A stretch of DNA of 15,556 bases from Dysgonamonadaceae bacterium (GTDB lineage: Bacteria > Bacteroidota > Bacteroidia > Bacteroidales > Azobacteroidaceae): positions 1 through 15,556 of the forward strand of contig JAISNS010000304.1 of the NCBI GenBank assembly GCA_031276105.1. The letters run 5' to 3'. Shown piece after piece: positions 2,059-12,449 of the stretch; within the stretch, counting starts at the first letter, position 1, and each line of letters begins with the position of its first letter. Made by a program: the position numbers and the translations under genes. The notes beneath the pieces were generated by a model. The model was not told the DNA's origin and made no database searches. It saw only the letters and a list, made by a program, of their open reading frames with translations.

Positions 2059-3258
2059 ATGACAACACATCAATATTTTTATTTCATAAAGAGGCTTTTC
2101 CTTTTTAGCCTCCTTTTCTCATCCTGTTACAACTACGACTGGGAGGCAAAACACGAAACATCGCTCGCGCCGTTCAGTATCACCACGCCCGATTTGCAGC
2201 AAACAATTGCCGTAAATTACGCCGACAGCGCTTCAACCTTCGGCAAAGAAACGCGGCTGGAATGGGAAAAATCAAGCGCAGCCGACTTTTCCAAAGTATT
2301 TTACGAAGTTTGGTTTTATAATCCGAAAAATTTGGAAACACCCTTTTTAAAACAAATTACAGGTTCAGGCCAAACAGAAAATTTTCTCATCCTGAACGAA
2401 AAAGAGTTGAATATCGTTGCCGAAAAAGCCGGTATCGCCCCCAACTCTACCGGCGAAGTGCGCTGGAAAGTCAACGCCGCAAACGGCATCAATAACCAAT
2501 TCAGCAACAACGAAAAAACGCTAACCATTACCCGTCCCGCAGGATTTGCCTATTATCCCGAAAAAATGATGACTGCCGGCGCGGCGCTTGGCGATAAAAG
2601 AATAGAAATGAAACGAATCGCAATAAAAGATAAAGACAGGGAAGCATATACCGGCGAATACGAATTGTTTGTTTACCTCGCCGAAGGCAATTTTTACCTG
2701 ACCGAACAGGGCACCGACCGGCGCTTCTACATCTCGGAAAACGGAAACTTGAAAGAAGTTTTTGACGAAGAAAAACAGTCGCTACTCAACTCCCCTATTA
2801 CGACCGGTAAAATCCACCGGCTTAAAATCAACCTGAAAACCGCTACCGCCCTTTTTGTCGCAATAGAAGCCGTTGACTTATGGTACAGCGGCACAAACAA
2901 CATCCTCGGCGCTTTGCAACAGAGCGATCCTCAAGTTCCATACTGGACTGTAACCCAATATATTGAACTCGCCGGAGAAGGGACGGCAACCGATTATCGC
3001 TACAAATTTCGCCTAACGCAAAAAAACACTACCGGCGAACAGTCGGCCTCCTTCTGGGGCTACAGCGCCATCACTGCGCCCAACCAAAGCGCAACCTCGC
3101 AACCTTCCTACTTTTATCTGTATGAAGTCGATAATAGCCGGTCGGACTATTGCTACAAATTCAATCGCACCGACCACAATCGGAATACACTGAAAATCGA
3201 CGTCGATTTCAGACCCGAAATAGAACACTTTACACACCAACTAAGAGTTAAAAACTAA
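2059..3258 (+). CDS. SusE/SusF-like outer-membrane glycan-binding lipoprotein
   Basis: The 399-residue protein begins with a lipoprotein signal: a basic start, the hydrophobic run LFLFSLLF, then SSC with Cys23 as the likely lipidated residue, followed by aromatic and acidic residues (YNYDWE). Residues of about 35-165 look like the N-terminal SusE domain, a fibronectin-like beta-sandwich with RLEWEKSSAADFSKVFYEVW and a later GEVRWKVNAANGINNQ. The rest (about 175-399) contains beta-rich segments such as ELFVYLAEGNFYLTEQ and YFYLYEVDNS that resemble the starch-binding-type modules of SusE/SusF proteins. Such lipoproteins sit on the cell surface and bind glycans without cleaving them. No SusC or SusD gene is present beside it, which is unusual because SusE genes normally follow susCD. 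The stop lies in a heptamer array. The family assignment is from motif recall; the ligand is unknown. Confidence 0.65.
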   Translation: MTTHQYFYFIKRLFLFSLLFSSCYNYDWEAKHETSLAPFSITTPDLQQTIAVNYADSASTFGKETRLEWEKSSAADFSKVFYEVWFYNPKNLETPFLKQITGSGQTENFLILNEKELNIVAEKAGIAPNSTGEVRWKVNAANGINNQFSNNEKTLTITRPAGFAYYPEKMMTAGAALGDKRIEMKRIAIKDKDREAYTGEYELFVYLAEGNFYLTEQGTDRRFYISENGNLKEVFDEEKQSLLNSPITTGKIHRLKINLKTATALFVAIEAVDLWYSGTNNILGALQQSDPQVPYWTVTQYIELAGEGTATDYRYKFRLTQKNTTGEQSASFWGYSAITAPNQSATSQPSYFYLYEVDNSRSDYCYKFNRTDHNRNTLKIDVDFRPEIEHFTHQLRVKN

Positions 3259-3345: not shown

Positions 3346-5499
3346 ATGAAAATCAAAAATTATCTCATCAAGCAAGCAGGGCTTTCATTAATGTCGTTTG
3401 CAGCCCTCACACAACTAAATGCGCAACAAACCTTCGAAGCCGAAGCGTTTATAGAAAGCGCTTACGCCACCGTTACAGACGCCGAACTTTTCTCCGGCGG
3501 CAAGTACGTAACCATGAACGCCGCCTACGGCAGTTATGTGAAATACATAATAACCGCTGAGGCAGCAGGAACCTACGATTTTGCGATCGACTATGCTACA
3601 ATGAACGGCCGCAGCATGTATGTCAAAGCAGAAAACTACCTGCCGGTAATTGCCGTATTCGACACATTTACCGGCTCGTGGGACGGATCGGAAGGAACCG
3701 GCGACGACGGCAACCCCTTAGCCGGAATCATGACGCTGACCGTACCCGTCTATCTCAACGCCGGCGAGAACGAAGTGGAAATCGGCGCTTTCGATGGCCA
3801 AGACGGCAGCTTTTCGCCCAACTTCGACAAATTTACCGTATCGCCGTCAGCCGCAACAACCCTCCCCACCCTATCGCCCGCGGCGCTTTCCTTTGAAGCC
3901 GAAAATGCGAGAATCATTTCGGCAGATATCAACGACGCCACCTGCTATTCCGGCGGCAAAGGCATATTCAACATCGGAGCATCAAGCAAAATTCAGTTCG
4001 AAAACATCAACGTAGCCGAAGAAGGAACATACAACGTTGTTGCCTATTACACAACATTTAGCGAACGCAATTTTACCGTTAAGGCAAACAACTACTTACC
4101 CGTAACGATGGCCTGCAAAATCGGATTGCCTTACTGGACCTGCCCCGAAAACGAAGAACAGGAAAACGACCCGACCCGCCCGACTATCCTGAAAAAAACC
4201 GTACAGGTATATTTCAATGCCGGCAGCAACACCCTCACTTTTTCGAGCTTTCAGGGCAACCCCACCCCCAATCTGGATAAAATCGAAATCGTAAAATCAG
4301 GCCTGAACCTTCCGAAACCCGGCTACGAAATAATGGCCGCCGTTTTCGATTTTACCGACAACGTAGCAAACTTTGCCACCGATTTTGTAGAGGAATACGC
4401 AACCGACAGCGCCAACCTTTCCCGTCTGATTGATAACAACGAATACACCACTTATATAAAAGAAGGCGTTTCGGAAACAAAAATCACCGCTAAAACGGCT
4501 TATCCGATCATTCTTACCGGCTATGCAATCGCCGGCATTTTCGGACAACCCGGCAAATTGCCGGACGATTGGACATTGGAATATTCCGACGACGGCAATA
4601 CTTGGAACCCCGTTGCCAACGTCGGTGCAATCGACACAGACGCTTATCGCAGCATTACCACCGGATACAACCTCGACAACCTTGTATCGGCACAATATTT
4701 CCGGCTTACCGCTACCGGAAACGGAAAAGTAGAAATCGGCGAATGGCAACTCTTTGGCGTACCCTACATCAGCGCCGAACAAGCATTTCCCAACGACGAC
4801 ATGACCCACAACGTTCCTTTCGATGAAATACTCAGCTATTCGATGGGCGACCCCGACGGATTCGACAGAGGAGGCGGATGGAATGAAGTATTTGAAAATG
4901 TGTTTGACAAACAGTTGAATACCGTTTACACGGTAGTGGACGGCAAAAATTTCTACATCCAATTTGAAACCCCCGATCTCGTTACGCTCAAAAGCTATGC
5001 ACTGACAGGGCGATTCGGATTTGCCCCACGCAGCCCGTCTAAATGGAAAATAGAAGCCCTCAGCGAAAAAACAAGCGATTGGGTTTTGCTCGACACACGT
5101 GAAAACATCAAATTCCCCGCCGACGCTTCAACGCTCATGTTTAATATTAAAGAACCTGTCGAATCGTTTCTGTATAAATTGACCGTTGAAGATACCGCAG
5201 GCGAGGGCACGGCCAATCTGGTGCAATGGCAAATGTTCAAAGATTGGTACGGTATTTCCCCCAGTCCTAACGCTATAAACAATGTAACCTGCCATTTTCC
5301 GGTAACGGTTGCCTCGCGTAAAGGCTCAATCCAATTATATACTACATCAGCCGCCAACCTGCCGTTCACCCTGTTCGATCTGCTTGGCAAACAGATCGAA
5401 AGCGGCGTTTGTCATCCGGGCATCACAGAAATCCGTGTTGGCAGTGGCGTGTATATCATTCGGGTAGGCGAAGCAGCAAGCAAGATAGTAGTAAAATAA
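3346..5499 (+). CDS. T9SS-secreted carbohydrate-binding protein: two CBM6-like and two F5/8C-like domains
   Basis: The 717-residue protein has a signal peptide (cut probably after LNA, residue 26). Domain 1 (about 29-165) and domain 2 (about 183-318) are CBM6/CBM35-like beta-sandwiches: each begins FEAE, has a SGGK motif, a YLPV strand and ends NFDKFTV or NLDKIEI. Two F5/8-type-C (discoidin-like) domains follow: about 325-472, with LEYSDDGNTWNPV and the closing GEWQLFG, and about 473-635, with a closing VQWQMF. The tail (about 648-717) is a T9SS type A sorting domain: FTLFDLLGKQIESG and GVYIIRVG ending in KIVVK. No catalytic domain is visible, so it is inferred to be a surface or secreted glycan-binding protein serving the enzymes downstream. 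It matches the leading architecture of the 12499 gene. ATG at 3346 directly precedes the signal peptide. Ligand unknown; the domain family names could shift to neighbouring CBM families. Confidence 0.8.
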   Translation: MKIKNYLIKQAGLSLMSFAALTQLNAQQTFEAEAFIESAYATVTDAELFSGGKYVTMNAAYGSYVKYIITAEAAGTYDFAIDYATMNGRSMYVKAENYLPVIAVFDTFTGSWDGSEGTGDDGNPLAGIMTLTVPVYLNAGENEVEIGAFDGQDGSFSPNFDKFTVSPSAATTLPTLSPAALSFEAENARIISADINDATCYSGGKGIFNIGASSKIQFENINVAEEGTYNVVAYYTTFSERNFTVKANNYLPVTMACKIGLPYWTCPENEEQENDPTRPTILKKTVQVYFNAGSNTLTFSSFQGNPTPNLDKIEIVKSGLNLPKPGYEIMAAVFDFTDNVANFATDFVEEYATDSANLSRLIDNNEYTTYIKEGVSETKITAKTAYPIILTGYAIAGIFGQPGKLPDDWTLEYSDDGNTWNPVANVGAIDTDAYRSITTGYNLDNLVSAQYFRLTATGNGKVEIGEWQLFGVPYISAEQAFPNDDMTHNVPFDEILSYSMGDPDGFDRGGGWNEVFENVFDKQLNTVYTVVDGKNFYIQFETPDLVTLKSYALTGRFGFAPRSPSKWKIEALSEKTSDWVLLDTRENIKFPADASTLMFNIKEPVESFLYKLTVEDTAGEGTANLVQWQMFKDWYGISPSPNAINNVTCHFPVTVASRKGSIQLYTTSAANLPFTLFDLLGKQIESGVCHPGITEIRVGSGVYIIRVGEAASKIVVK

Positions 5500-5511: not shown

Positions 5512-5670
5512 ATGAAAATGAGTAAATATGCTCATATAGCTGCACTTATTTCCTTATTGTTTCCAACGCCTGCGCTTTTGGCGCAGGCACTGGAAGCTTG
5601 GGACGATGTAACCGTAACGCAAATAAACCGGGAAGAAGCCCATACAATTGCTATTCCTATTGTGTTATGA
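5512..5670 (+). pseudogene. GH2-like glycosidase N-terminal remnant, or 52-aa upstream ORF overlapping the GH97 start
   Basis: This short ORF begins 12 bases after the preceding stop (ATG at 5512, alternative ATG at 5518). It encodes a plausible signal peptide (KYAHIAALISLLFP, then PALLAQ) followed by EAWDDVTVTQINREEAHTIA and IPIVL, then TGA. The WDDVTVTQINREEAHTIAIP segment is what I recognise as the mature N-terminus of Bacteroidales GH2 beta-galactosidase-like enzymes, which normally continue for 800-1000 residues. Here it stops abruptly and its TGA (5668-5670) overlaps the ATG of the GH97 gene (5667-5669). The simplest reading is a deletion that removed the rest of a GH2 gene and left its translation start. 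It may still be translated and could couple translation to GH97. The alternative is an unrelated small exported peptide. The GH2 match is from memory, not a search. Confidence 0.65.
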
Positions 5671-8174
5671 AAAATTTATTATTACTTGCCGTCGCCACTT
5701 GTATTTCGCTGAATGTATTGGGAAATACACTGCTAACAACCATGTATTCAGCTGATAATCGGATTAAAATAGAACTGTTTCTACAAAACGATTCTTTGTT
5801 TTACAAAGCATTTTTCAACAATATGCTTGTAATTGACGCCTCGAATATCGGAATACGGTTTACCGGCGGAAATTTTCTGAGAAACTTGGTTTTCGACAGC
5901 AAACGCGACAGCATTATCAATGAAACTTACACCTTGCCTTCCGGAAAAGTATCGGAATATCATAACTTTTGCAATGAAACGACTGCGCGTTTTACAACTG
6001 CTTCAGCCATACTCGAAATAGTATTTCGAGTTTATAATGAAGGATTTACATTCAGGTATCAATCGCCAGGCGCAGCCATAGCAAACGTTACGTTTCAACA
6101 GGAAAATTCGTTTGTGAATGTTGCAAATTTCGAATCGTCGTGGGTGCAAAAATACCATCCCGACTATTCGTGGTACTACGAAAAGCGCGACTGGAACCTC
6201 AATGTAAATACCGAACACACACAACGCGGACTGAATACGCCGGCATTAATCAAAGCCGGCAACGTATATCTGCTGATTTCAGAAGCTGCAAACGATAGAC
6301 AATATGCCACATCGCGACTGATAGCAAACAATAAATCGGGATGTTACAATTTTGAACCGGTGGGTAACATCAACTCGCCGCTTCCTTTTGCCACGCCATG
6401 GCGTGTCGTTTTTGTGGGAGATTTAAAAACAATTGTAGAATCGACATTGATTGAAAACCTTAATGCTCCGAGCATTTACAGCGATTTTTCGTGGATTCGG
6501 CCCGGTCGCGTAGCCTGGGATTGGGGTGGAGAAGACGCGCAAAATGTGATTGGATACGATATTTCAAAATCCTATATTGATTTGGCAGCCCGAATGGGTT
6601 GGGAATATTACAATCTCGACGATGGTTGGGATAGCAATCGCGCCGATTATCAACTGGCCGACATCGTTAATTATGCCGATTCCAAAGGCGTAAAACTCAT
6701 TCTTTGGACTCATAACAATCGCTTCGCCAACAATCGACAAGACATTTACAACAAACTTTCGGCATGGAAAAATCTTGGAGTGGCAGGCATAAAAGTTGAT
6801 TTTTGGGAAAACGACGACCAAGCGACAATGCAAAAATATGAAACACTGCTTGACGTAACCGCCGAACTGCAAATGGCGGTTAATTTTCACGGCTGCACCA
6901 AACCTTCGGGCTTGCGCCGGAAATATCCGCATTTTTTGACTTCCGAAGCTGTGCTCGGCGGCGAATTTTATTTCGGAGACATGCCGCAAATGGTTAATTC
7001 AAAGCATAATATTAATATAGCGCTTACCCGGAACGTTATCGGATCAATGGATTTTACGCCCTGCGATTTTGCAAAAAAGAATGGCCGGGTGCAACACGAA
7101 ACTTCGTGGGCACAGCAAGTGGCGCATACTATTTTGTACGAAAGCGGACTGTTGTACTTCCTCGACCACCCAAACAATTATCGCTATCATATTGCCGAAA
7201 GTTTCCTCAAACAGATACCTGCCGCATGGAACGAAATTAAATGCCTCGAAGCCGAGCCTGACAGGTATGTAAGCATCGCCCGCAAAAACGGCGCCGACTG
7301 GTTTGTTGCTTCAATTACCGACGCAAAACGTACTCTGAACTTAAATCTTTCATTTTTAGATGAAAACAAAACTTACAATGCCTACATTTACAAAGATGGC
7401 GACTGTAAGTCGGAAATTACATTTGATTTTCAGGCAAATTTGACAAATACAAGTTCGTTGCAAATTCCACTTTTAGATTCGGGCGGAGTGGCCATTCGCT
7501 TTTCCGAAAACGCCGGTTTGCCAAAACCGGCGCAACAAAAATGGGAAGCTGAAAACGCATTTACTTACGGTTCAAAAACGACTGATACCGATGGCCTTTG
7601 TTCGGGTAAAAAATACGTTTCCAATCTCGGAAAAATGAATAAGTTGAAATTCAGCAATATAAACGTAGAAAAAGATACGCTTTATGCGCTAACGATTTTT
7701 TATATGAGCGATGAAGCAAAATCGGCTTACATCAAAATCAACGATGAAAGCGAACCGCTGTATTACGATTTCCGTAACACAGGCGGCGAAAGCGGTCGAT
7801 TTTTAGCCATGAAAAACCTTGTCGTTCCGTTGCACGCGGGAAATAATACAATTGAATTGGGTAATACTCAAGGTTTTGCACCATGTATCGACCGCATTAC
7901 CATAAAGTCGCTTTCGGACGAATCCGGTGCGCCCAATGTAATCCCTTACGAAAATCTGCAAAAACGATTCTCTTGGTTTGTAAAAGAAAATACAATAACG
8001 CTGAATAGCGCCTTTGCCGGAAATTTTACTCTTTTCGATTTGCAAGGACATAAATTGAATACCGGGAAAATGATTGCCGGCGAAAACTTTATCGTACTCC
8101 CTGAAAAAGGCGTTTTTATCATCAGCATGGATGCAGGATATGAATCATTTTCATTTAAAACAATAAACAAATAA
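5667..8174 (+). CDS. GH97 glycoside hydrolase (retaining type) with CBM6-like domain and T9SS tail
   Basis: An 835-residue exo-acting alpha-glycosidase, probably an alpha-galactosidase or related. I chose ATG 5667 because it starts a clean signal peptide (KNLLLLAVATCISLNVLG); an in-frame upstream start at 5598 would put 23 unrelated residues ahead of it. Layout: GH97 N-terminal beta-domain (about 22-270); catalytic barrel (about 275-540) with WIRPGRVAWDWGG, YYNLDDGW, GIKVDFWEND and NFHGCTKPSGLRRKYP; GH97 C-terminal domain (to about 615); CBM6-like domain (626-750); T9SS sorting domain (about 766-835, FTLFDLQGHKL and KGVFIIS). Asp378 in KVDF is the likely nucleophile of the retaining branch, and Glu427 in TSEAV the likely acid/base. 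It is therefore expected to be exported across the outer membrane. Its start overlaps the stop of the GH2-like ORF, and the next gene follows after 10 bases. Exact sugar specificity cannot be read from sequence. Confidence 0.9.
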   Translation: MKNLLLLAVATCISLNVLGNTLLTTMYSADNRIKIELFLQNDSLFYKAFFNNMLVIDASNIGIRFTGGNFLRNLVFDSKRDSIINETYTLPSGKVSEYHNFCNETTARFTTASAILEIVFRVYNEGFTFRYQSPGAAIANVTFQQENSFVNVANFESSWVQKYHPDYSWYYEKRDWNLNVNTEHTQRGLNTPALIKAGNVYLLISEAANDRQYATSRLIANNKSGCYNFEPVGNINSPLPFATPWRVVFVGDLKTIVESTLIENLNAPSIYSDFSWIRPGRVAWDWGGEDAQNVIGYDISKSYIDLAARMGWEYYNLDDGWDSNRADYQLADIVNYADSKGVKLILWTHNNRFANNRQDIYNKLSAWKNLGVAGIKVDFWENDDQATMQKYETLLDVTAELQMAVNFHGCTKPSGLRRKYPHFLTSEAVLGGEFYFGDMPQMVNSKHNINIALTRNVIGSMDFTPCDFAKKNGRVQHETSWAQQVAHTILYESGLLYFLDHPNNYRYHIAESFLKQIPAAWNEIKCLEAEPDRYVSIARKNGADWFVASITDAKRTLNLNLSFLDENKTYNAYIYKDGDCKSEITFDFQANLTNTSSLQIPLLDSGGVAIRFSENAGLPKPAQQKWEAENAFTYGSKTTDTDGLCSGKKYVSNLGKMNKLKFSNINVEKDTLYALTIFYMSDEAKSAYIKINDESEPLYYDFRNTGGESGRFLAMKNLVVPLHAGNNTIELGNTQGFAPCIDRITIKSLSDESGAPNVIPYENLQKRFSWFVKENTITLNSAFAGNFTLFDLQGHKLNTGKMIAGENFIVLPEKGVFIISMDAGYESFSFKTINK

Positions 8175-8184
8175 TTTGAAAAAT

Positions 8185-10470
8185 ATGAAAAAATCAATCG
8201 TTACTGTCGCTGCCTTGCTCGCCATGACAATCGACTTGAAAGCACAACAGCCTGTTTTGGATTACAGTCTGTTGGATTCGCCGGATATAGTATCGGTTTC
8301 CACTTCTGTTATTAACGAAACCGCCGCTAATCTGACCGACAAGAATGTTTGGACTTACTATCAAGTCGAAAACTTTACGGGCGAAGTAGCCATTACAATA
8401 GAAACATCACAACCGGTTGTCGTAAAGGCTTACAGTTTTGTGTCATCCGACGACGAAAGCGCCGATCCGAAGGTTTTTAAGTTGGAATACTCCGACAATG
8501 GAGCCACTTGGACACGCATCGGCACAAGTATTTATTCACATACTTTCGATGGACGTCTCTCTCAGTCGCTGTTTGCACAAAACAGCAATGCGCAAGCGCA
8601 TACTCGCCATCGTATTGTTATTTCGGCAGTTAATGGCGGAACAAAACTCAAAATCGCTGAGTTTCAACTTTTCGGGCTGCCCGCTTTATTGCCTGCCGAC
8701 TTCACGCAAACAGAAAATGTTTCGGCTTCGGGCGATCTCGGCGCGTCCAATTTGCTCGCTAACGATCTCAACGCTGTTTTCCGAAAAAACAACAGCCAAA
8801 CAGCCGAAATAATTTACACCTTCGACCAACCTGTCGGCATTGCCGGCTACTCGCTTATTACGACCACTGCCGCCAATGTTGCCAATCAAATCCGCTCATG
8901 GGAAGTTTCAGGCTCTAACGACGGCGCAACATGGAAAACGCTTGATGTTCGCGCCAACAAAAATGTGCTTCCGGTGACCAATAATTTCCAGCTTTATCGC
9001 ATAAGCAACGAAACGGAAAAAACAGGATGGAGCGCGTGTGCCGACTCTATGCAGAGTAAAATGATCGACCTGTTTTGGCGACAGCGCGGTTCGGGATACT
9101 ATCTCGTCCACGCAAATAATCTCGAAGCCGAAACAAAAGACTTCGGATTCAATTATTGGTGGATGGCTCACGCGATTGATGTGTTTATAGACGCTTATGC
9201 AAGAACAGGAAATAATGATTATAAGCTAAAAATGAGACAAATATACAACGGGATGAAATCCGGACAAAATAGCTTGAAAAACGGTTTTTTTGATGATATG
9301 GAATGGATGGCTTTGGCATGTATCCGCGCTAACGAAGTAGAACCCACAGGCATGGTTAATTGGAAAAACGAAGCTATTCAACTTTGGAATTGGATAAAAC
9401 TCGGTTGGAACACCGACTATCACGGCGGCGGGATACAGTGGGTCGATACGCAGCCGCAATCGAAAAACGCCTGTTCCAATGCACCTGCAATTATTGTTGC
9501 AGCGCGGCTGTTCCAACTGACCGGCGAACAAACCTACCTGGATTGGGCATTGCAAATCTATAACTGGATGAAATCCGGCCTGATTCTCTCCAATGGACTT
9601 GTGCGCGATTCTTACGACAACGATTGGATTTTTACCTACAACCAGGGAACTTGGATTGGCGCTTGCCTCGAACTCTACAAAATTACAAACGAACAGCAGT
9701 ATTTCGATGCAGCCATGCGAACAGCCGACTACATTTTGAACGACCCAACCAAATTTTCGCCTTACGGAATACTGTATAACGACGAAGGTGGTGGCGACGG
9801 CGGAATGTTTAAAGGAATACTGATGCGTTATCTATCACAATGGATTTTGTCGGGAAAATTAGACGCCGATCGCGAAGAACGATTTATCAACTACTTCATC
9901 GCCAACGGAAAAAGCGTATGGCAGTCGGCGCTGAATTTCAATACAGGCGTAGCCGGAAACACTTGGTTCGAACGAACGCCGCGTGTTTCCGCCGAAAGTA
10001 CGGCAAAGGGCTATGAGTCGTCTATTCATTTGAGCGCAACGATGCTTTTTGAATTGCTCGACGAGTTGGAACGCAACGGCTTCATAACCGAAAAAGGATT
10101 GGCAAAAGGAATGGAATCAAATGTCAACCGGCCATATAAATACTATCGCCTGAATGTAACGGCAAACAACAACGGATCGGCGGTAGAAGTGGCGCGTTGG
10201 CAGTTGTTTGAACGAATCGGAGGAAGCGGCATTGTCGAAAAGCAAACCGTAAACAATCCGGTAATAATCACCGCGCAACAAGGTAGTCTGCATTTGTGCA
10301 ACACAAGCGACCGGAAACTGCAATACCGCCTGCTCAATTTGCAGGGAGCAACGGTTTCGACAGGCGAACTTATCCGGTCGAAAGAAATCAAACTGAATCA
10401 AGGCATTTATATGGTAACCGTTATTGACGGAACAACCGTATATGCCAACACTAAAAGTATAATTTTCTAA
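8185..10470 (+). CDS. GH76 alpha-1,6-mannanase nested within an F5/8C domain, T9SS-exported
   Basis: A 761-residue endo-alpha-1,6-mannanase. ATG 8185 starts the signal peptide (KKSIVTVAALLAMTIDLKA); a TTG at 8176 is possible but less likely. Domain 1 (about 30-170) is F5/8C-like and closes with KIAEFQLFG. A second F5/8C-like domain starts near 173 (IRSWEVSGSNDGATWKTLD) and breaks off at YRISNETE (about 271-278). The GH76 catalytic domain follows (about 280-640): NYWWMAHAIDVF, FFDDMEWMALA with the catalytic Asp pair 370-371, GGGIQW, SNAPAI and FTYNQGTWIGA. After GH76, the missing end of the F5/8C domain appears: PYKYYRLNVTANN and VARWQLF (648-676). A T9SS tail ends the protein (about 690-761). 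GH76 cuts alpha-1,6-linked mannan backbones. Gaps to the neighbours are 10 and 5 bases, indicating co-transcription. The family call is strong; the nested architecture is my reading of the alignment. Confidence 0.9.
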   Translation: MKKSIVTVAALLAMTIDLKAQQPVLDYSLLDSPDIVSVSTSVINETAANLTDKNVWTYYQVENFTGEVAITIETSQPVVVKAYSFVSSDDESADPKVFKLEYSDNGATWTRIGTSIYSHTFDGRLSQSLFAQNSNAQAHTRHRIVISAVNGGTKLKIAEFQLFGLPALLPADFTQTENVSASGDLGASNLLANDLNAVFRKNNSQTAEIIYTFDQPVGIAGYSLITTTAANVANQIRSWEVSGSNDGATWKTLDVRANKNVLPVTNNFQLYRISNETEKTGWSACADSMQSKMIDLFWRQRGSGYYLVHANNLEAETKDFGFNYWWMAHAIDVFIDAYARTGNNDYKLKMRQIYNGMKSGQNSLKNGFFDDMEWMALACIRANEVEPTGMVNWKNEAIQLWNWIKLGWNTDYHGGGIQWVDTQPQSKNACSNAPAIIVAARLFQLTGEQTYLDWALQIYNWMKSGLILSNGLVRDSYDNDWIFTYNQGTWIGACLELYKITNEQQYFDAAMRTADYILNDPTKFSPYGILYNDEGGGDGGMFKGILMRYLSQWILSGKLDADREERFINYFIANGKSVWQSALNFNTGVAGNTWFERTPRVSAESTAKGYESSIHLSATMLFELLDELERNGFITEKGLAKGMESNVNRPYKYYRLNVTANNNGSAVEVARWQLFERIGGSGIVEKQTVNNPVIITAQQGSLHLCNTSDRKLQYRLLNLQGATVSTGELIRSKEIKLNQGIYMVTVIDGTTVYANTKSIIF

Positions 10471-10475
10471 TAATT

Positions 10476-12449
10476 ATGAACAAACGATCAATCTTTATTA
10501 CCGCTCTGTCGGTTGCAATTTCTTCTTTGTTTGCAAATGCCGCAAACAAAAAATGGTTTGAACTTCGCTCTCCGGACGGCGATTTGAAAATTACCGTCAA
10601 ACTCGACGATAAAATCACTTACGACCTGTCGGTAAACGAGCAAATCATGCTCGAAAACGGTGAAATCGCCCTCGAAACATCAACGGCGATATTCGGCACA
10701 AATCCCATACTCGTCAGCCAAAAACGCGCAAGCGTAAGCGAAACAATAACGCCCGTTGTCCCGTTGAAGTTCTCGACGGTTAAAAATCAATACAACCGTT
10801 TGTTATTGAACTTCAAAGGCAACTTTTCGGTCGAATTTCGCGCTTTCGACGAAGGTGTCGCTTATCGCATCATTATGAACCGAAAAGGCGAAATGGAAGT
10901 ATTGAACGAAACGTTTTCGCTGCAAATACCGAACGATTATCTGTTGCATTGCCAATTTACCGGCGGTTTCAAAACCCCTTATGAAGACGATTATCATCAT
11001 TTAAACATTGCCGAATGGCAACAAAACCGCCCAATGGCGCCCCTGCCGTTGCTTATTGATTCCAAAAAGCAATGTAAAATCCTCCTGTCCGAATCGGATT
11101 TAAGCGACTATCCGGCAATGTTTCTCAAAACGGCGGCTAACAACAATATCGTTTCTGCTTTTCCGAAAATGCCGCTTGCGTTTGGCGAAGACGGCGACCG
11201 AAGTCTAAAAATAACAAAAGAAGCCGCTTACATAGTCAAAACAACAGCTACAAGAACATTACCTTGGCGTTATTTTGTATTGGCAAAAACCGACGCGCAA
11301 CTCGCTGAAAATACAATGACATTGAAACTCGCCGCAAAAAGTGAACTCGCCGACGCCTCGTGGATTAAGCCCGGACAAGCCTCGTGGGAATGGTGGAATG
11401 GCGCTACACCCTACGGCCCCGATGTAAATTTCGTGTCGGGATTCAACCTTGATACCTACAAGTATTTCATCGACTTTGCCTCGAAATACGGCGTAGAATA
11501 TATTGTAATGGACGAAGGTTGGGCAAAATCGACCCGCGACCCTTATACGCCGAATCCTGAAGTAGATGTTCACGAAATAATCCGGTATGGAAAAGAACAC
11601 AACGTAGGCATATTTCTTTGGCTCACTTGGCTAACGGTGGAAAACAATTTTGAGATATTCAAAACCTTTGAACAGTGGGGAGTAAAAGGCGTGAAAATTG
11701 ACTTTATGGATAGAAGCGATGCCTGGATGGTCGATTTCTATGAACGTGTGGCACGCGATGCGGCCTCCAATCATTTGCTCGTCGATTTTCACGGCGCATT
11801 CAAACCGGCAGGACTTGAATACAAATATCCAAACGTGATTTCTTATGAAGGCGTGCGCGGAATGGAATACATGGGCGCTTGCCTGCCGAACACAAGCGTC
11901 TATTATCCGTTTATCCGCAATGCGGTAGGCCCGATGGATTACACGCCCGGCGCCATGCTTTCGATGCAGCCGAACGCTTACGGCGGACGTTCGGGCGACC
12001 GTCCCAACTCGGCAAGTATCGGTACTCGCGCCTACCAAATGGCGCTCTTCGTTGCCTTTGAAAGCGGCATACAAATGCTTGCCGATAATCCGACACTCTA
12101 TTATCGCAACCACGAATGTACCGAATTTATCACTTCCGTGCCTACTACTTGGGACGATACCAAAGTATTGGCAGCCGAAGCCGGTAAATACTATATTGTA
12201 GCCAAACGCAAAGGCGACAAATGGTTCATTGGCGGAATATGCAACAGCGACAAGCCGAAACGCACTTTTGAACTCAACCTGTCGTTCCTTCCGGAAAATA
12301 AAACGCTGACAATGACAAGTTTTGAAGACGGAATCAATGCCGGTCGGCAAGCGATGGACTATCGCAAAAATGTAAAACCGGTCATGCAGAGCGATAAACT
12401 TTCCATCAAAATGGTACATAACGGCGGCTTTGCCGCTGTAATTGAATAA
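10476..12449 (+). CDS. GH97 glycoside hydrolase (retaining type), probably periplasmic
   Basis: A 657-residue GH97 enzyme of typical length for the family. Its signal peptide (MNKRSIFITALSVAISSLFANA) is cut near residue 22. The N-terminal beta-domain (about 24-275) opens with FELRSPDGDLKITV. The barrel (about 280-560) shows SWIKPGQASWEWWNG, YIVMDEGWAKS, GVKIDFMDRSD and DFHGAFKPAGLEYKYP. Asp409 in KIDF is the likely nucleophile, as in retaining alpha-galactosidase-type members, and Glu458 in SYEGV the likely acid/base. The 49-residue spacing equals that in the GH97 encoded at 5667. The C-terminal domain ends in GGFAAVIE. Unlike the other GH97 it has no CBM and no T9SS tail, so it is expected to stay in the periplasm and trim imported oligosaccharides. 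It starts 5 bases after the GH76 stop, so the pair is probably translationally linked. The two GH97 copies are clearly diverged and not a recent duplication. Confidence 0.92.
   Translation: MNKRSIFITALSVAISSLFANAANKKWFELRSPDGDLKITVKLDDKITYDLSVNEQIMLENGEIALETSTAIFGTNPILVSQKRASVSETITPVVPLKFSTVKNQYNRLLLNFKGNFSVEFRAFDEGVAYRIIMNRKGEMEVLNETFSLQIPNDYLLHCQFTGGFKTPYEDDYHHLNIAEWQQNRPMAPLPLLIDSKKQCKILLSESDLSDYPAMFLKTAANNNIVSAFPKMPLAFGEDGDRSLKITKEAAYIVKTTATRTLPWRYFVLAKTDAQLAENTMTLKLAAKSELADASWIKPGQASWEWWNGATPYGPDVNFVSGFNLDTYKYFIDFASKYGVEYIVMDEGWAKSTRDPYTPNPEVDVHEIIRYGKEHNVGIFLWLTWLTVENNFEIFKTFEQWGVKGVKIDFMDRSDAWMVDFYERVARDAASNHLLVDFHGAFKPAGLEYKYPNVISYEGVRGMEYMGACLPNTSVYYPFIRNAVGPMDYTPGAMLSMQPNAYGGRSGDRPNSASIGTRAYQMALFVAFESGIQMLADNPTLYYRNHECTEFITSVPTTWDDTKVLAAEAGKYYIVAKRKGDKWFIGGICNSDKPKRTFELNLSFLPENKTLTMTSFEDGINAGRQAMDYRKNVKPVMQSDKLSIKMVHNGGFAAVIE

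Follow-up and report, generated by a model that had tools for sequence, protein, structure and literature searches.

Modular enzymes are usually pictured as beads on a string, and the gene discussed here (P0001) raises the question of whether a whole catalytic domain can be lodged within a domain of the binding type. The gene lies in a stretch of 15,556 nucleotides from a contig of a Dysgonamonadaceae bacterium, referred to throughout as the window, and the features concerned are collected in Table 1. In the encoded protein a first F5/8C domain (d1) comes before a second, of which the initial three quarters (d2N) precede a complete GH76 domain; a short segment (d2C) and a C-terminal tail close the protein. 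A first-pass annotation of this DNA had proposed that the GH76 domain intervenes between the YRISNETE and VARWQLF strands of a single F5/8C domain, and the motifs are located as it quoted them (YRISNETEKTG at residues 271-281, PYKYYRLNV at 650-658 and VARWQLF at 669-675), with the Pfam match to GH76 between them.

Table 1. Features of the window that bear on the nested GH76 gene (residue numbers refer to P0001)
Feature	Position	Strand	Basis
SusE-like protein	2059..3258	+	PF14292, 25.7 bits (cut-off 25.2)
CBM6/35-like domains with tandem uninterrupted F5/8C domains and tail; same host type, unsplit	3346..5499	+	Pfam, joined profiles
GH97 with CBM35-like domain	5667..8174	+	Pfam; closest PDB entry 5xfm, an alpha-glucosidase entry, 9.8e-67 (query started two codons upstream of the ATG)
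Nested GH76 gene P0001, 761 aa and stop	8185..10470	+	Coding part 8185-10467; orthologue L048, 82% identity over residues 1-761
Probable signal peptide, residues 1-20	8185..8244	+	By eye: basic start, hydrophobic stretch, then QQ
d1, F5/8C domain, residues 21-166, C-terminal end KIAEFQLFGLP	8245..8682	+	PF00754; alignment to L023
d2N, first part of split F5/8C domain, residues 168-274	8686..9006	+	PF00754 at 175-269 (profile 4-100 of 127); joined-flank alignments and profiles
N-linker, residues 275-281	9007..9027	+	Family alignment
GH76 catalytic domain, residues 282-630	9028..10074	+	
Catalytic Asp pair, residues 370-371, FFDDMEWM	9292..9297	+	Alignment with 6shd
C-linker, residues 631-649	10075..10131	+	Family alignment
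d2C, last two strands of split F5/8C domain, residues 650-676	10132..10212	+	Joined-flank alignments and profiles; predicted strands
C-terminal tail, T9SS type A-like, residues 691-755	10255..10449	+	TIGR04183, 18.8 bits (under cut-off 23)
GH97	10476..12449	+	Pfam; closest PDB entry 3a24, a retaining alpha-galactosidase, 1.1e-131

Pfam finds PF00754 in two stretches of P0001, the better being that listed for d2N, with 38.5 bits for the whole protein (cut-off 28.2). Taken alone, d1 scores 25.9 bits, under the same cut-off, over profile positions 6-90 of 127, and it aligns with an uninterrupted relative (L023) through its last strands. The GH76 domain is recognised by PF03663 at residues 286-598 with 134.8 bits (cut-off 25.9), and its residues D370-D371 align with the DDMEW motif of 6shd, whose Asp pair is replaced by NN in 6y8f, the inactive variant; the pair is kept in all 16 rows of the nested family alignment.

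Structures were predicted for the whole protein from alignment A1, which holds four nested rows, one of them truncated (model 1: pLDDT 57.2, pTM 0.49), and for residues 168-680 from alignment A4, with eight rows (model 2: pLDDT 67.9, pTM 0.66). Both predictions are of modest confidence. The 50 PDB structure matches listed for each are all GH76 or other (alpha/alpha)6-type enzymes and so bear on the GH76 part, for which the models support a complete (alpha/alpha)6 fold. In model 2, d2N has five strands and d2C two, and both models place the d2C strands at residues 651-660 and 669/670-676. Four of the rows behind model 2 are uninterrupted d2 domains, which ties it to the sequence argument given below; model 1 does not depend on that argument and is of low confidence. 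The single match under E 0.001 in a BFVD structure search was F9VHN7 (504 columns, rmsd 18.4), and the F5/8C or galactose-binding matches there were short, at about 71-129 columns, weak (E 0.19-0.6) and listed without ranges.

Whether both flanks make one F5/8C domain was addressed by joining them. The first-pass annotation expected the joined flanks to give one full-length F5/8C match, and the outcome was neutral: with residues 168-279 joined to 645-680 the Pfam match lengthens from profile positions 3-100 to 4-114 of 127, but the score passes from 27.2 to 26.0 bits, under the cut-off of 28.2. The segment d2C alone matched no Pfam family. Annotation profiles can score the halves of a split domain badly, and here Pfam gains nothing from the second half; family-specific profiles were therefore built, from the 15 complete nested proteins that are known. 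The absence of a rise in Pfam score is in keeping with another account, in which d2N is already complete and d2C is either left over from a third F5/8C domain that has been lost or an unrelated hairpin packing on the tail, and so is the position of the tail directly after d2C in the window protein.

The family-level comparisons point the other way. When residues 21-278 are joined to 647-761, the product aligns in one piece, gap-free at the junction, to uninterrupted tandem F5/8C proteins encoded at L023 (26% over 357 columns, 2e-35) and L029 (1e-27), both from a congener. For a wider comparison, the joined profile and one of d2N alone were scored against the 382 ORFs left once 17 nested ORFs and the redundant ones had been taken out, among which 25 domains had a d2N i-E below 1e-3; the loci had been chosen as matching P0001 or its relatives or as flanking nested genes, and the set is thus a non-random sample. 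The joined profile gained a mean of 14.3 bits over d2N alone and was positive in 24 of the 25 uninterrupted domains, as against a mean of +0.03 bits, with 13 of 25 positive, for ten column shuffles of d2C. A profile of d2C only found a match directly behind that of d2N in 16 of the 25, several of these being far too weak to stand alone. Across the junction region (profile positions 105-125), all 26 uninterrupted matches that cross it have 0-3 inserted and 0-4 deleted positions, from which it follows that d2N and d2C neither overlap nor leave a gap. Outside nested ORFs the joined profile gave 31 matches, 24 full length, five N-only, two other and none C-only. It splits in 12/12 complete non-redundant nested ORFs, largely by construction, as this is the point at which the profile was cut.

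A joined profile made from 11 of the 15 nested proteins (A2) matched both CBM32 domains of 7nsn, the alpha-1,2-mannosidase NnGH92, with an E of 1.3e-29, the best stretch running across the join (positions 25-147 of 151). Beyond 7nsn the PDB matches are weak: 4bxs comes next (3.8e-4), and for neuropilin, factor VIII and O-GlcNAcase the match lies mostly in d2N. The NnGH92 report sets the C-terminal CBM32 at residues 1182-1316 (PMC10167667), so that d2C corresponds to the final portion of a domain delimited by crystallography.

Set against the unbroken passage of all 26 matches through the junction, and its freedom from gaps in the L023 alignment, a d2N that is already complete appears very improbable. 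The same is argued by the pairwise identity of d2C, which at 40.6% stands beside 17.3% for the tail, and by the nested protein at L068 (1468-3477), which retains d2C, stops one residue after it and has no sorting tail; SprA is encoded in its genome (G465). Once the GH76 insert is set aside, every part of an F5/8C domain is present, and in order. That one such domain is split by a whole GH76 domain, as the first-pass annotation held, is what the unbroken alignments and the gain over shuffled controls bear out, and its further point that both ends of GH76 are tethered to the host domain is likewise supported. We hold the nested architecture to be real with high confidence.

The arrangement might also have been produced by assembly or gene calling, and the assembly of the window genome is indeed fragmented (370 contigs), or the C-terminal strands might resemble an F5/8C ending by chance. 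The same domain order occurs in 14 genomes, however, and the shuffled d2C control performs at chance, so that we give these explanations next to no weight. The orthologue at 82% identity (L048) and another 13 complete relatives have the arrangement too, which rules out an assembly artefact.

In total the nested arrangement was found in 15 complete proteins, that of the window included, and one truncated protein. A scan of genome contigs gave three nested loci, from Candidatus Symbiothrix (L048, 82%), a Bacteroides sp. MAG (L049, 33%) and an uncultured Muribaculaceae MAG (L050, 37%), the last with its gene cut by the contig end; a scan of viral contigs gave no relative. Relatives other than L048 are 30-37% identical to the window protein. 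In the window's family a match at 1e-10 was present in 11 of 45 genomes, two of them with the nested form. The survey of the order found matches at 1e-30 in 15 of 393 genomes, full length in the window's own only, and that of the phylum found matches at 1e-40 in nine of 395, again nested in the window's own only. Within the family of the L050 genome, matches at 1e-40 occurred in 11 of 397 genomes and were nested in all 11; the same family surveyed from the L049 genome with alignment A3 gave 13 of 347 at 1e-60, 12 nested and one matching the GH76 part only. Nested copies may be missed in these counts, as two candidates were scored per genome in the surveys of the order, of the L050 family and of the phylum and three in the survey from the L049 genome. 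Among 64 non-redundant GH76 ORFs, 13 are nested, three have F5/8C after GH76 in the ordinary order and 48 are without F5/8C by these profiles. The family would thus appear to belong to a narrow range of gut Bacteroidales lineages. Two genomes carry two nested GH76 genes each (L051 and L054 in G433, of which one copy is cut by the contig end; L052 and L053 in G434), and congeneric GH76 proteins with one to four F5/8C domains after GH76 are encoded at L025/L021 (G016), L012 (G035) and L016 (G029).

How the arrangement came about is suggested by the GH76 domains themselves. A tree of 34 of them, drawn from matches at E up to 1e-30 with L081-L088 and L090 (phylum survey) and L105 (family survey) left out, separates the 15 nested domains from 19 free-standing ones by a single branch with support of 100/99. 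Free-standing relatives, one of them in the window's own genome (L002), end where they align with residues 628-634, which is where the insert ends, and the uninterrupted form of the host, a tandem F5/8C protein with a tail, is encoded two genes upstream of the nested gene. The simplest account would be one insertion of a free-standing GH76 domain into a tandem F5/8C protein, with its direction read from these comparisons. On this account a whole domain of the GH76 endo-alpha-1,6-mannanase type would have entered a secreted tandem F5/8C protein of gut Bacteroidales once, at the loop that precedes the final two strands of an F5/8C (discoidin, CBM32-type) domain, and the arrangement would have been inherited thereafter.

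The linkers bear on what the nesting may do. The segment around the N-linker (residues 273-283) has 11 residues in 14 of 16 rows of the family alignment and 12 in the other two, and that around the C-linker (626-654) is 27 residues long in 12 of 15 rows, the others having 29 (two rows) or 23 (one row). Mean pairwise identity over 13 rows is 61.0% for GH76, 46.1% for the C-linker (residues 626-649), 35.7% for d2N, 32.8% for the N-linker and 30.2% for d1, and with the values given above for d2C and the tail these figures indicate that d2N and d2C change at similar rates, unlike the tail. Counting the strands alternately up and down, the insertion loop would lie at the pole of the C-terminus, and the loop bearing Asp148 and Arg152, ligand residues in the NnGH92 CBM32, at the other. 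As a scaffold, d2 would then clamp both ends of GH76 and fix the enzyme at the far end of the fold from the usual CBM32 ligand loops. Of the rigid nested unit put forward in the first-pass annotation, the near-fixed linker lengths and the conservation of the C-linker relative to the tail give indirect support, while rigidity itself is read from linker statistics only; judged from sequence, a fixed display of GH76 by d2 is somewhat the better bet.

The architecture may also be real but functionally neutral, GH76 having landed in a permissive loop and been kept by descent, with the domains behaving as if flexibly linked. A single origin and a narrow lineage range would fit this. It seems rather unlikely, however, given that linker length and sequence are kept among relatives that, the 82% orthologue aside, are only 30-37% identical to the window protein. 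The architecture and its single origin appear very likely, and the clamp is the likeliest reading of the mechanism. In its fullest form the proposal is that the F5/8C sandwich closes only around an intact GH76 domain, so that scaffold and enzyme would fold in a coupled way, with the active site kept at a fixed angle on the far pole from the ligand loops; these proteins would be exported CAZymes of single origin with the enzyme as guest and the discoidin domain as host, and the first described GH76 so built. We judge the chances of this fuller version to be evenly balanced.

Comparison with known systems shows where the arrangement differs. The GH76 alpha-1,6-mannanases (6shd, Salegentibacter GH76A; Aman6 of Bacillus circulans, and BT2949 and BT3792 of B. 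thetaiotaomicron) match the window protein within residues 278-602 only, in a sequence search that compares the matched segment alone. Discontinuous CAZymes are described in PMC7848910, which reports the type as widespread in gut Bacteroidetes loci and includes the Xyn10C-type GH10 xylanases with two inserted CBM4 domains (Pm25, from termite gut) and SusG (GH13 with CBM58); there the polarity is reversed, the CBM lying inside the catalytic domain. CE20 esterases likewise have a domain insertion with a defined linker, and the insert contributes to the substrate region, but in them the beta-sandwich ancillary domain is the insert and the SGNH enzyme domain the host (PMC12313940). In NnGH92, likewise an alpha-mannan enzyme, a CBM-like domain accommodates an inserted domain, but there the insert is a CBM32 and the enzyme follows in series (PMC10167667), whereas the insert of P0001 is catalytic. 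Within the same lineage, tandem F5/8C proteins that are not interrupted (window 3346-5499; L023; L029) share the order d1-d2-tail and differ in having no enzyme inside d2.

Insertion of CBMs into catalytic domains is therefore known already; the reverse, a GH76 domain within an F5/8C or CBM32 domain, was not found reported in a search of the open-access literature with few wordings, which shows absence weakly. The first-pass annotation knew of no described example either. If true, the coupled reading with guest enzyme and host discoidin would mirror, with the roles exchanged, the GH10/CBM4 and SusG insertions. A conserved insertion of a catalytic domain in a scaffold would be another way of fixing enzyme geometry and would offer a model from nature for tethering (alpha/alpha)6 enzymes at two points. 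It also singles out a defined gut Bacteroidales family, with alpha-mannan as the probable substrate, for study of its structure and biochemistry.

It could be argued instead that d2 is a working CBM32 which anchors the enzyme on mannan or some other glycan, the nesting merely presenting both to one chain. Its closest solved relatives are, after all, the CBM32s of an alpha-mannosidase, one of which is bound to mannoimidazole, with contacts from Asp148 and Arg152 of the N-terminal CBM32 (PMC10167667). In d2, however, neither residue is found at the aligned positions and they are not kept across the nested family, in a loop alignment that is gapped there and leaves Glu105 and Phe122 unmapped; a sugar-binding role is thus not supported at the level of sequence. 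In the same study the extra domains of NnGH92 appeared to matter little for affinity towards yeast mannan. A binding role for d2 is accordingly doubtful, and the scaffold reading is preferred.

The gene neighbourhoods offer pointers to the substrate. The window holds the SusE-like gene and neither SusC nor SusD, which lie beside SusE in the syntenic locus L072, and no second mannosidase was found in it. Relatives of the window neighbours (SusE, CBM-F5/8C, GH97) accompany the nested gene in three of eight fetched neighbourhoods (L072, L073, L079) and are absent from the other five; they also occur at L050. Other enzymes of the alpha-mannan type are present in four of the eight (GH76, GH31 and GH36 at L073; GH38 with F5/8C at L076; GH38, GH125 and GH76 at L078; GH92 and GH76 at L079), and the neighbourhoods of L074 (GH78-type), L075 and L077 hold no pointer to mannan. 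From these neighbourhoods and the likeness of the GH97 proteins the substrate is probably alpha-mannan, possibly alpha-galactosylated, and the nested protein would cut its alpha-1,6-linked backbone.

The protein is presumably exported. Besides the probable signal peptide, after which Q21 is invariant in alignment A3, the tail resembles T9SS profiles below their thresholds, with PF18962 at 15.3 bits (cut-off 27) in addition to the TIGR04183 score of Table 1. SprA (PF14349) is encoded in the window genome (G000, E 5.8e-194) and was found in seven of nine searched genomes with nested genes and not in the other two. At the other end of the window the SusE-like gene directly follows murE (292-1755), and an 86-aa ORF between them (1768-2028), with CHCGLDPQSP and similar repeats, looks more like an intergenic repeat element than a gene.
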